Assembly: GCA_030447305.1 (NCBI GenBank)
Contig: JAUJPC010000004.1
Coordinates: forward strand, 1-64,000
Reading direction: 5' to 3'
DNA: 64,000 bases
From: Actinomycetota bacterium
GTDB lineage: Bacteria > Actinomycetota > CADDZG01 > JAHWKV01
Shown: piece by piece, positions 15,469-39,484 of the stretch
How positions within the stretch are numbered: the first letter of the stretch is position 1
Layout of the letters: each line of letters begins with the position of its first letter
The notes under the pieces: generated by a model
The model's input: only the letters and a program-made list of their open reading frames with translations
What the model was told of the DNA's origin: nothing
The model's database searches: none
Made by a program: the position numbers and the translations under genes

Positions 15469-16679
15469 GCCGGCAGAACCTGCGGCACCCTCGCGAGCAC
15501 TCCATCGAGGATTTCTATGGCCTCGTCACAGTCGGCCTTGGTCAGGATAAGCGGCGGGCACATCCGGATGGCCGAGGGCGACACGTCGTTGACCAAAAGA
15601 CCCTTCTTCAGGCAGGCCAGGACCACGTCGCGAGCGCAGTCGACGTCGAACTGCAGAGCCAGCAGCAGGCCCCGGCCACGCACATTCGAAGCCCCCTGGT
15701 GCCGGTGGGTCATTTCTTCCAGCCTCTGCTTCAGATAAGCGCCCACACTGCGCGCGTTATCCACCAGCCCGTCCTGTTCGATGGTGTCAATCACCGCCAG
15801 CGCAGCCGCGCATACCACCGGTCCTCCACCGATGGTGGTGGCATGGTCGCCCAGCTGAAAAGCCTCCGCCCACTCCCCCCGGGCCACGCAAGCCCCGACC
15901 GGAAGGCCGTTGCCCAGCGCTTTGGCCAGCGTGATCACATCCGGGACAGCTCGGGAGTGCTGATAACCGAACCACTTCCCGGTCCGCCCGAGCCCCGTCT
16001 GTACCTCGTCGATGATCAGTGCCAGGTCGTGCTCGTCGCAGATGCGGCGGACATGCTCAAGGTAGCCGTCGGTGGGCACCATCACCCCGGCCTCCCCCTG
16101 GATCGGCTCCAGAAGGACCGAGGACTCGGCGCCGGTTACCGCGTCCTCGAGCGCGCGGAGATGGTCATACTCGACGTGGGTGAAACCCAACGGAAGCGGG
16201 TGGAACGGGTTCCACTTCGCCGGCTGGCCGGTGGCCGCCAGGGTTTGAAGAGTTCGCCCATGAAATGCTCCCCAAGCCGCGATGGTTCCGTACCGGTTGC
16301 TGCCGAACTTGTCCCCAGCCCAGCGCCGGACCAGCTTCAGGGCACACTCGTTGGCCTCGGCCCCCGAGTTTGCGAAAAAGACCCGTCCGTCGCCCCACCC
16401 GAGCAGCCCGCACAACCGGTCGGCCAGCCGGGCCATCGGTCCGGTGTAGTACAGATTGGAGGTGTGGACCAGCGTGCCGGCCTGCTCGGCAATTGCGGAG
16501 GTCACCGCCGGGTGGGCGTGGCCCAGGGCATTCACCGCCACCCCGGCGACAAAATCCAGGTAGTCCTTACCGGCGTCGTCGTAGAGTCGAACGCCCTCGC
16601 CCCGGACGAAGGTCACGGGCAGGCGCCGGTAGGTGGGCATGGTGCGGGTGTCGGCCAGCGCCTGGATATCGGAGCTCAT
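15465..16679 (-). CDS. argD: Acetylornithine aminotransferase
   Basis: Class III PLP transaminase of 404 residues converting N-acetylglutamate semialdehyde to N-acetylornithine. Marks are FFANSGAEANECALKL, LIIDEVQTGLGRTGKWFGY, and the PLP lysine in TLAKALGNGLPVGAC. It sits between argB and argF with 4-nt overlaps on both sides. Position in the operon separates it from the related GABA or ornithine transaminases. Confidence 0.96.
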   Translation of the reverse strand: MSSDIQALADTRTMPTYRRLPVTFVRGEGVRLYDDAGKDYLDFVAGVAVNALGHAHPAVTSAIAEQAGTLVHTSNLYYTGPMARLADRLCGLLGWGDGRVFFANSGAEANECALKLVRRWAGDKFGSNRYGTIAAWGAFHGRTLQTLAATGQPAKWNPFHPLPLGFTHVEYDHLRALEDAVTGAESSVLLEPIQGEAGVMVPTDGYLEHVRRICDEHDLALIIDEVQTGLGRTGKWFGYQHSRAVPDVITLAKALGNGLPVGACVARGEWAEAFQLGDHATTIGGGPVVCAAALAVIDTIEQDGLVDNARSVGAYLKQRLEEMTHRHQGASNVRGRGLLLALQFDVDCARDVVLACLKKGLLVNDVSPSAIRMCPPLILTKADCDEAIEILDGVLARVPQVLPA

Positions 16680-17557
16680 GGCAGCACCATTGTGCCCGAT
16701 CCTTCATCGGTGAAGATCTCCACCAGTAGGCAGTGGGGCTGCCTTCCGTCGAGGATGTGAGCCTGGGGCACCCCCGACTCGAGGGCGTTCACCACACCCG
16801 AGATCTTCGGGATCATTCCCTTCGAAAGGTGCCGTCCGTCGAGCATGGCTCGCAACTGGGCGACCGTGGTCTCCGGGATGAGGCTGGACTCGTCACCGAA
16901 GTCCCTGTACAGCCCTTCGATATTCGTCAGGAAGACGATCTTTTGTGCCTGCATCCTGACCGCGATCGCGGCCGCGGCAAGGTCGGCGTTGATGTTGTGG
17001 GTGGCTCCCTCGGGCCCGCACCCCACCGGCGCAATGACGGGTATGCAGTCCTTGAGAAGCACCCGGTACAGCTGCCTGGGGTCGACCCCGACCACCTCGC
17101 CGACCAGCCCCAGATCCTCACCGCCGGGCCCGAGGAGCGTGCGGGTCTGTAGAAGGCCGTCTTCGTCGCCGGCCAAGGGGACGGCGTTGCCGCCGTTGCA
17201 GTCAATGGCCCAGGTGATGGCTTCATTCACGCCCATCATCGCCTTACGGACCACCGACACGGTTTGGTCGTCGGTGACCCGGTAGCCGCCGATGAAGCGG
17301 GGCTCCAGGCCGAGCTCCCGCATGGCCTGGCTTATCTGGTTGCCGCCCCCGTGAACCAGTATTGGGCGCATTCCGACGTACTTCAGGAGCGTCAGATCCG
17401 TCGCAAAACCTTTGAGAGTTTCGGGGTTGTCGGCGATCTCGCCTCCCACCTTGATTACCACCGTCTTGCTGGTCCACCTCTGGATGTACGGCAGCGCCTC
17501 CACCAGCACAGCGGACTTGCGCTGAGCCTCGGACCAGGTCCTGGTACCGGGACTCAC
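16676..17557 (-). CDS. argB: Acetylglutamate kinase
   Basis: Phosphorylates N-acetylglutamate; amino-acid-kinase fold, 293 residues. Motifs are TVVIKVGGEIADNPE, ILVHGGGNQISQAM (substrate loop), NINADLAAAAIAVRMQAQKIVFLTNIEGL and the ATP-site lysine in SKGMIPKISG. An N-terminal extension before VVIKVGG contains WTSKT, as in arginine-inhibited, hexameric forms, so feedback control by arginine is likely. Its TGA overlaps argD and its ATG overlaps argJ. Confidence 0.96.
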   Translation of the reverse strand: MSPGTRTWSEAQRKSAVLVEALPYIQRWTSKTVVIKVGGEIADNPETLKGFATDLTLLKYVGMRPILVHGGGNQISQAMRELGLEPRFIGGYRVTDDQTVSVVRKAMMGVNEAITWAIDCNGGNAVPLAGDEDGLLQTRTLLGPGGEDLGLVGEVVGVDPRQLYRVLLKDCIPVIAPVGCGPEGATHNINADLAAAAIAVRMQAQKIVFLTNIEGLYRDFGDESSLIPETTVAQLRAMLDGRHLSKGMIPKISGVVNALESGVPQAHILDGRQPHCLLVEIFTDEGSGTMVLP

Positions 17558-35996: not shown

Positions 35997-36080
35997 TTGT
36001 CATCCTCAACCAGGACTCGCTTGGGGGGCTTTAGGAGGGCACGAATAGGACGCTGCGCTGTTGAGCGCGCGCCCCACTCC

Positions 36081-36206
36081 GCCGTCTTCTCCCATCCAGA
36101 CTTTAACTGTCGGCCCTGGAAACGAACCAGGTCCACCTCTTCCGAAAAGAAAGAGGGTCACGGGCTTTACCGCCGGTCCGGAATTTCACCGTGCCCCGAA
36201 GACGCG
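36081..36206 (-). ncRNA. FMN riboswitch (RFN element)
   Basis: On the minus strand the element opens near 36206 with the P1 strand GTCTTC and GGGGCACGGTGAAATTCC, then GACCGGCGGTAAAGCCC, GTGGACCTGGTTCGTTTCC, GCCGACAGTTAAAGTCTGG, and closes with ATGGGAGAAGACGGC. P1 pairs GAAGACG (36198-36204) with CGTCTTC (36083-36089). These are the hallmark segments of the RFN aptamer. It sits 85 nt upstream of ribD. No strong U-tract terminator follows, so translational control or a weak terminator near 36010-36040 is likely. Confidence 0.95.
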
Positions 36207-36263
36207 TCACTTACTTATCGGTAAAGAGTATGAACCATGGCGCACGTGCCGTCCCATCAGGGC

Positions 36264-38048: not shown

Positions 38049-38975
38049 TCAGCCGAGCACTCCCGGCAGCGCAGACCCGTAACCCCGGACGAAGTCGTCG
38101 GCGGCCATCCGGGCCCTGCCCTCCGGCTGAACCTCCCGGGGTAGGAGCCTCTCGGAGCCGGTATCAACCACCAGCTGCTCACCGTCCAGGGTCACAGTGC
38201 CGGGGACCGCTTCAGAAAGCTCCGGGGCAAGATCCGCCTGCCAGATCTTCAGGCGCTTACCGTTCAGGGTCGTCCAGGCTCCCGGCCTTGGGTTGAACGC
38301 CCTTATACGGTTGCGAATGACTTCTGCCGGCATCGACCAGTCGATATGAGCATCCTCCGGGGCGAGCTTAGACGCATAGGTGACACCTTCCTCGGGCTGA
38401 GGAGTGGCAGTCACCCGATCCAACCGGTCGAGGATGCCGGGAAGCAGTCCCGCACCCAACGCGGACAGCCGGTCGGCCAGGGTGCCGGATGTGTCGTCGG
38501 GCCTGATGGGCTCCTCCACCGTCTCGAGCACCGGCCCCGTGTCCAGCCCCGGGTCCATCTGCATGAACGTCACACCGGAGCTTCGGTCGTCCTCCAGGAG
38601 CGCCCACTGCACCGGTGCAGCCCCGCGCCAGCGAGGAAGCAGGGAGAAGTGGACGTTGATGCACCCGAGCGGCGGAATATCGAGCACCGCCTTCGGCAGT
38701 ATCAGCCCGTAGGCGACAACGACGAAGGCATCGGCGCTCTCTTCCCTCAGCGCCTCCTGCGCCTCCTCGGAACGCAGGGTCGGCGGCTGGAGCACCCGAA
38801 GACCGGCACTCACCGCGAGGGCCTTCACCTCCGAGGGCTGCAGGTTCATGCCCCGGCCTCTGGGCCGGTCGGGCGCGGTAACCACCGCTGCGACCTCGTG
38901 ACTTGAGTCGATCAGTGCCTGCAGCGCTGGTACGGCGATGCCGGGTGTTCCGAAGAAGACGACCCTACGGCTTAC
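38049..38975 (-). CDS. fmt: Methionyl-tRNA formyltransferase, non-canonical start (GTA or ACG)
   Basis: Formylates initiator Met-tRNA. The family N-terminus is fully encoded (RRVVFFGTPGIAVPALQALIDSSHEVAAVVTAPDRPRGRG, split here over 38969-38850), but no ATG/GTG/TTG precedes it. The first standard start is GTG 38885, which would remove 30 residues including the first Rossmann strand. The codon at the expected position is GTA 38975, 7 nt after AGGAGG (38988-38983); ACG 38978 is the other option. INVHFSLLPRWRGAAPV and the C-terminal domain are normal. With GTA the protein has 308 residues. GTA overlaps the def stop (GTAA), as if a former GTGA had mutated. Confidence 0.88.
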   Translation of the reverse strand, partial: VSRRVVFFGTPGIAVPALQALIDSSHEVAAVVTAPDRPRGRGMNLQPSEVKALAVSAGLRVLQPPTLRSEEAQEALREESADAFVVVAYGLILPKAVLDIPPLGCINVHFSLLPRWRGAAPVQWALLEDDRSSGVTFMQMDPGLDTGPVLETVEEPIRPDDTSGTLADRLSALGAGLLPGILDRLDRVTATPQPEEGVTYASKLAPEDAHIDWSMPAEVIRNRIRAFNPRPGAWTTLNGKRLKIWQADLAPELSEAVPGTVTLDGEQLVVDTGSERLLPREVQPEGRARMAADDFVRGYGSALPGVLG

Positions 38976-39484
38976 CGTGCGGCCTCCTGCAGAGCCCAGG
39001 TCTCCTGCAGCTCCCGCAGCACCCCGATGGCCTCCTTGCGAAGGGCCGGCGGCAGGTGATCGATGAACAGCACGCCGTTGAGGTGGTCGATCTCGTGCTG
39101 GATGATCCGGGCGGTCAGATCCTGCGTCTCAAGCTGCACCTCGTCGCCGTTCTCGTCGATGCCCTCGACGACGATGAACTGCGAGCGCACCACCGGGTAG
39201 GTGATGCCCGGCATCGAAAGGCACCCCTCCTCGCCCTCCACGGACCCGTCTTGCTGGAGCATCACGGGGTTGGCCAAACAGCCGCGGTCCTCCTCGTTCT
39301 CCCAGACGATGATCCGGCGCAGCACTCCGACCTGCGGAGCGGCCAGCCCGATACCGGGAGCCTCCCTCATGGTGTCGGTCATGTTCTCCATCAGGCGCCT
39401 TGCACCCCGGTCCACCCGAGAGACCTTCGAGGCGCGAGCTCGCAGAACCGGGTCACCAAAAAGCCTGATCGGAAGAATTGCCAT
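38972..39484 (-). CDS. def: Peptide deformylase
   Basis: Removes the formyl group from nascent proteins; 170 residues. The three motifs are present: GIGLAAPQVG, EGCLSMPG (metal Cys) and IIQHEIDHLNG (metal His pair and Glu). The start is ATG 39484 (MAILPIRLFGDPVLR). It lies 10 nt after priA, and its TAA overlaps the fmt start region. The def-fmt pair is a common arrangement. Confidence 0.96.
   Translation of the reverse strand: MAILPIRLFGDPVLRARASKVSRVDRGARRLMENMTDTMREAPGIGLAAPQVGVLRRIIVWENEEDRGCLANPVMLQQDGSVEGEEGCLSMPGITYPVVRSQFIVVEGIDENGDEVQLETQDLTARIIQHEIDHLNGVLFIDHLPPALRKEAIGVLRELQETWALQEAAR

Follow-up and report, generated by a model that had tools for sequence, protein, structure and literature searches.

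An apparent non-canonical start codon for fmt at its overlap with def in a class of Actinomycetota

Introduction

Methionyl-tRNA formyltransferase (Fmt) is an enzyme of an essential pathway. Natural, conserved non-canonical start codons are few, being known for infC, pcnB and sigR and for some genes from profiling. The window analyzed here, a 64,000-nt stretch of DNA from an actinomycetotal genome, contains an fmt gene that overlaps the end of def and has no canonical start codon where its product should begin. The locus therefore raises the question of where fmt translation starts, and whether the start is a genuine feature of the gene or an artifact of the sequence. An earlier note on this DNA had named two codons, GTA and ACG, as candidate starts and had explained the former by a single G-to-A change.

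We compared the genome carrying the window (G000) with three other species of its genus (G001 to G003), with G004, G006 and G007 from three further genera of its order, and with a class sample of 24 genomes, in 23 of which the fmt start was readable. A census of overlaps and starts took in 464 kb from G000 and 380 kb from G017, a member of the sister family f3; the scan of G017 for coding sequence ahead of the first canonical start extended as far as an N run, and its overlap census was complete. The features of the locus are collected in Table 1. Also present on the minus strand of the window are an FMN riboswitch (RF00050, 111.8 bits) at 36080-36207 and a partial 16S rRNA gene (model positions 1-361) at 1-361, cut by the contig start.

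Table 1. Genes, candidate start codons and ribosome-binding site at the def-fmt junction, and the infC start (window coordinates)
Feature	Position	Strand	Remarks
fmt, methionyl-tRNA formyltransferase	38049..38975	minus	308 codons from GTA to stop; stop 38051-38049
def, peptide deformylase	38972..39484	minus	ATG start 39484; TAA stop 38974-38972
GTA, likeliest fmt start codon	38973..38975	minus	4-nt overlap with def stop (GTAA)
ACG, alternative fmt start codon	38976..38978	minus	invariant in 4/4 genus members
AGGAGG Shine-Dalgarno site	38983..38988	minus	within def reading frame
CTG, third and least likely fmt start candidate	38997..38999	minus	in frame, 4/4 genus members
GTG, first canonical start in fmt frame	38883..38885	minus	30 codons inside protein
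ATA, infC (IF3) start codon	30566..30568	minus	behind GAGGAG

Results

The G000 junction reads, on the minus strand, CAGGAGGCCGC-ACG-GTA-AGC-CGT-AGG-GTC-GTC-TTC-TTC-GGA. Upstream of GTA, the fmt frame continues for 51 codons without a stop, and no ATG, GTG or TTG was present in it upstream of the conserved RRVVFFGTP. Our frame scan agreed with the earlier note that the next canonical start is the internal GTG and that initiation there would mean loss of the first Rossmann strand. GTA and ACG proved to be the right candidates, although the note had omitted the in-frame CTG. The AGGAGG site ends 7 nt upstream of GTA, as the note had read from the sequence, and 4 nt upstream of ACG. As had also been claimed, stop and start overlap in the NTGA manner, and the arrangement is of the coupling type: the def stop and the fmt start codon have bases in common, and fmt lies in the -1 frame.

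The Fmt protein scored 290 bits against the NCBIfam equivalog TIGR00460 (cut-off, 201.5), with residues 4-300 aligned to positions 2-305 of the 315 in the profile, and N107, H109 and D145, which we take to be the active-site residues of the family, were invariant in an alignment of relatives. The score above the cut-off and the retained Asn, His and Asp residues place the protein among the methionyl-tRNA formyltransferases. Def matched NF001159 (172.7 bits) and TIGR00079 (135.8 bits), both above cut-off. G000, which is 98% complete, contains one fmt; a second Formyl_trans_N match, on another contig (C4:691747-692304), is probably purN. Sequence comparison gives good support to an fmt gene that is intact and has a non-canonical start codon.

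The earlier note had proposed comparing the junction in sister genomes, and fmt was found to lack ATG, GTG and any other canonical start in G001, G002 and G003 alike. Their junctions read AGGAGGTCGC-ACG-GTA-GCC (G001), AGGAGGTCGC-ACG-GTA-GGC (G002) and AGGAGCTGGC-ACG-ATA-AGC (G003), with def stops of TAG, TAG and TAA, respectively. Across the four species, the canonical start is therefore replaced by ACG-GTA in three and by ACG-ATA in one, and the overlap with the def stop takes the forms GTAA, GTAG and ATAA. The Shine-Dalgarno site is AGGAGG in G000, G001 and G002 and AGGAG in G003, and the def stop is never TGA (chance probability, 0.055). No further genus members were found in a search of genome contigs. 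The Fmt proteins of the genus are 71-73% identical, whereas the 4-fold degenerate sites of their genes are just 34-55% identical; since third positions have diverged while the protein was kept, fmt is under purifying selection. The proposed G-to-A change at 38973 was a fair description of the relation between the TAA stop and the GTA codon, but not as a single recent event, as A is common to all four species. Because this A is shared by the genus and also stands beside a TAG stop, the NTA state dates back at least to the origin of the genus.

The pattern extended to the class. In the sister family f3, fmt starts with CTG in 13 of 15 genomes, and in every case the CTG lies at the canonical start position and forms CTGA with the def stop; the two exceptions (G010 and G021) have ATG and lack the 4-nt def-fmt overlap, and two of the 13 (G009 and G022) have an extra GTG two or three codons downstream. 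Several f3 members carry AGAGGA or CGAGGA as the Shine-Dalgarno site, which is weaker in others. Overall, a non-canonical codon occupies the fmt start position in 17 of the 23 readable class genomes, 15 of which have no canonical start nearby. Where the fmt start overlaps the def stop, it is non-canonical in 17 of 18 cases and TTG in one, whereas all five starts that do not overlap are canonical (ATG or GTG); the association is significant when relatedness is ignored (Fisher p = 1.8e-4). Weak fmt starts are thus the rule in this class. The description of fmt as having lost its canonical start, given in the earlier note, holds for G000 and is too narrow for a sister family that carries CTG at this position.

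Outside the class, the fmt start was canonical at 114 of 116 loci in other Actinomycetota and in 78 of 78 distant bacteria, indicating that the missing canonical start in the class is more than chance. The two exceptions (L187 and L214, in G039 and G053) come from one genus of another family; their ATA overlaps the def stop in the form ATAA, and the weak fmt start seems to have arisen there independently. Many genomes outside the class have ATGA, GTGA or TTGA overlaps between def and fmt, so the overlap permits a weak codon but does not force one.

These comparisons bear on several explanations that dispense with a weak start codon. An assembly or base error at 38973, with GTG as the true sequence, would restore a normal GTGA overlap by a single base change; however, A occupies the same place in all four genus members, three of them separately assembled from G000, and two have TAG as the def stop (GTAG), which leaves an error with next to no probability. 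Because the weak start is common to the four species and to most of the sister family, it represents a real feature and not a sequencing error. A def-fmt fusion protein, produced by AGGAGG-guided -1 frameshifting at the end of def, would suit the -1 frame of fmt and the Shine-Dalgarno-like site ahead of the stop, an arrangement also seen at known frameshift sites, but it is very improbable: a slippery heptamer is absent from the site (GCA CGG TAA), neither X-XXY-YYZ nor a similar sequence occurs there in G000 or at the junctions of its relatives, the genus relatives and f3 have no slip sequence in common, and relatives without the overlap possess an ATG of their own. The internal GTG, finally, is the first canonical start and the one that a gene caller would probably pick. 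Its use would remove RRVVFFGTP and the first strand, which are conserved in all relatives, and both this start and the view of fmt as a pseudogene are scarcely credible for the sole fmt of a nearly complete genome, evolving under the purifying selection described above.

With regard to the codon itself, GTA is probably the fmt start in G000. The canonical starts of the three other genera of the order (GTG in G004, ATG in G006 and G007) align gaplessly with the GTA/ATA codon, through to FFGTP, and their position in this column favors GTA. If ACG were the start, GTA would merely be codon 2, and the initiator tRNA would pair with its first and third bases and be mismatched at the second. ACG is identical in the four species while the codon after it varies between GTA and ATA; however, it lies on a def Ala codon, GCA, and of the nine def columns that are Ala throughout, one has GCA in all four species, so that the conservation of ACG counts for little. 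Its distance from AGGAGG is short, and the ACG column contains no start in any relative outside the genus, whereas the GTA column contains ATG or GTG in three. We therefore regard initiation at ACG as rather unlikely and GTA as the likely choice between the two. CTG, or some other codon, is an improbable start; the CTG arises from ACC TGG, the Thr-Trp codons of def, and no well-placed Shine-Dalgarno site was found for it.

Weak starts were also found elsewhere in G000. The non-standard infC start reported in the earlier note was seen again: it is ATA in all six genomes of the same family, and ATC or ATA is present at or near the same place in the rest of the class. An rdgB-like gene in the C4:136613 region (locus L232, about 16613-17260, plus strand) has no canonical start and carries CTG behind GGAGG, and a lemA-like gene at C6:125351-125899 (locus L218:1351-1899, minus strand) reads GAGGAGGTCCTACGATC, with ATC as the candidate start and none that is canonical. 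Given these two candidates, start selection in G000 may simply be loose. A general habit of the class was rejected: apart from G000, every class member read has a canonical rdgB start, and the lemA-like gene starts with ATG, TTG and GTG in three relatives, so both non-canonical starts are private to G000. A glycosyltransferase-like frame (C4:72239-73282, minus strand) carries ATC behind AGGAG, and its apparent N terminus has no canonical start nearby.

The motif AGGAGGTCNNACGRTH was considered as a shared signal and rejected; beyond the fmt genes of G001 and G002, its only matches were the start of the lemA-like gene and, in antisense, a site within a helicase gene of G000. An altered initiator tRNA was also rejected, as the one initiator-like tRNA-Met among the 30 tRNA loci examined in G000 (42 genes called; 46 genome matches) is ordinary, with a CAU anticodon, a GGG/CCC stem and a 1-72 mismatch. 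RNAalifold detected no compensatory changes that would point to a conserved RNA structure at the junction.

Discussion

The mechanism that we somewhat favor is a translation of fmt that is coupled to def, is aided by re-initiation and starts from a codon kept deliberately weak, GTA, with probable sensitivity to IF3. A ribosome terminating def at UAA would sit with AGGAGG and GUA already in place, and the initiator fMet-tRNA would pair with GUA through G-U and U-A, leaving a third-base mismatch as in the AUA of infC. Re-initiation at GUA would be of low yield, so that the weak codon would hold Fmt below Def, and fmt translation would be made dependent on both IF3 and the available formylated initiator tRNA.

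Several published results have bearing on these steps. In Streptomyces, sigR starts at GTC with a strong AGGAGGTG site and is repressed by IF3 (PMC5472188). Re-initiation in Escherichia coli requires formylated initiator tRNA and is lowered by excess IF3, and mutations in IF3 increase initiation of a coupled recJ mutant (PMC2268962), the start codon of which is GUA according to the title of reference 19 in that paper (Haggerty and Lovett 1997). Yields from weak codons are about 0.86% of AUG for CUG in E. coli (PMC11497404) and about 10% for AUA/AUU in Staphylococcus aureus (PMC13009471). From these results on IF3, re-initiation and weak codons, we infer that Fmt supply is low, dependent on def and sensitive to IF3.

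The closest likeness is to sigR, which, like fmt, has a GTN start with a third-base mismatch and a strong Shine-Dalgarno site (PMC5472188), is conserved within one Actinomycetota genus and sits in one operon with a gene to which it is translationally coupled. The two differ in gene order, sigR being upstream in its pair and fmt downstream and overlapping, and in the codon, which is GTC or GTT in sigR and GTA, ATA or CTG in fmt; IF3 control has been measured for sigR, whereas for fmt it is suggested by likeness of sequence. Weak infC starts are AUU in E. coli, ATC in Streptomyces and AUA in S. aureus (PMC5472188, PMC13009471). Both infC and fmt belong to the initiation machinery and have a weak start, and the same codon, ATA, is found in infC of G000 and fmt of G003; however, IF3 acts directly on its own infC start, whereas Fmt would act only via formylation of the initiator tRNA. 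By the title of the cited study and the description in PMC2268962, the recJ mutant resembles fmt in having a GUA start on a gene described as coupled to an upstream reading frame, but this GUA is a laboratory mutation without a Shine-Dalgarno site, whereas the GTA of fmt is natural, conserved and preceded by AGGAGG. The ATGA-type termination-reinitiation overlaps treated in PMC6728339 have a 4-nt geometry identical to that of def-fmt and start with ATG, GTG or TTG, in contrast to CTG, GTA or ATA here. A near-cognate codon, a strong Shine-Dalgarno site and conservation across species are the sequence traits of the infC, pcnB and sigR type, and fmt has all three. By these traits, the fmt start would work like those of infC and sigR, with a putative sensitivity to IF3, and the link that the earlier note had offered as speculation between the fmt start, infC and IF3 appears reasonable.

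The weak codon may instead be tolerated and not selected, tight coupling to def supplying the ribosomes and leaving the start codon free to drift. As far as regulation is concerned, this is the strongest alternative to our interpretation, and it invokes the same initiation mechanism; the confinement of non-canonical starts to the overlapping arrangement agrees with it. We consider it possible but doubtful, because drift should often yield GTG or ATG, whereas f3 has CTG in 13 of 13 overlaps. The last def codon before TGA in f3 is CTC in all ten cases of Leu and TTC or ATC in three; a silent G or A at this point would give GTGA or ATGA, and neither arises. As CTC accounts for 39% of Leu codons in G017, ten of ten would have a probability of 0.39^10 = 8e-5 if the cases were independent, although conservation within f3 and within the genus reflects shared ancestry in part. 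Moreover, fmt starts in the overlaps of other bacteria remain ATG, GTG or TTG, and 84 same-strand gene pairs in the 464 kb of G000 have canonical 4-nt overlaps. The CTC bias, together with the lack of TGA in the genus, favors upkeep of the weak start; the case is clearer for f3 than for the genus. The weak fmt start is probably a regulatory feature.

At the level of the class, we tentatively suggest that a weak, def-coupled start makes Fmt synthesis report on the state of the initiation machinery and forms a second homeostatic loop beside that of infC; low IF3 or an altered fMet-tRNA supply would then change Fmt output. If this is true, GTA, together with ATA, would be a natural, conserved bacterial start codon, for which we found no earlier documentation. 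As far as our literature search showed, three things are new: a GTA start that is natural and conserved, an fmt gene with a weak start, and the link to a stop/start overlap. For annotation, gene callers that seek ATG, GTG and TTG would trim 30 residues off Fmt or miss its start. The presence of GTA, ATA or CTG at one overlap, as opposed to ATG in non-overlapping relatives, provides a testable comparative case that bears on how overlap, re-initiation and IF3 shape the choice of start codon. If the suggested homeostatic loop exists, the formylation step in these bacteria would come under control like that of IF3 itself.
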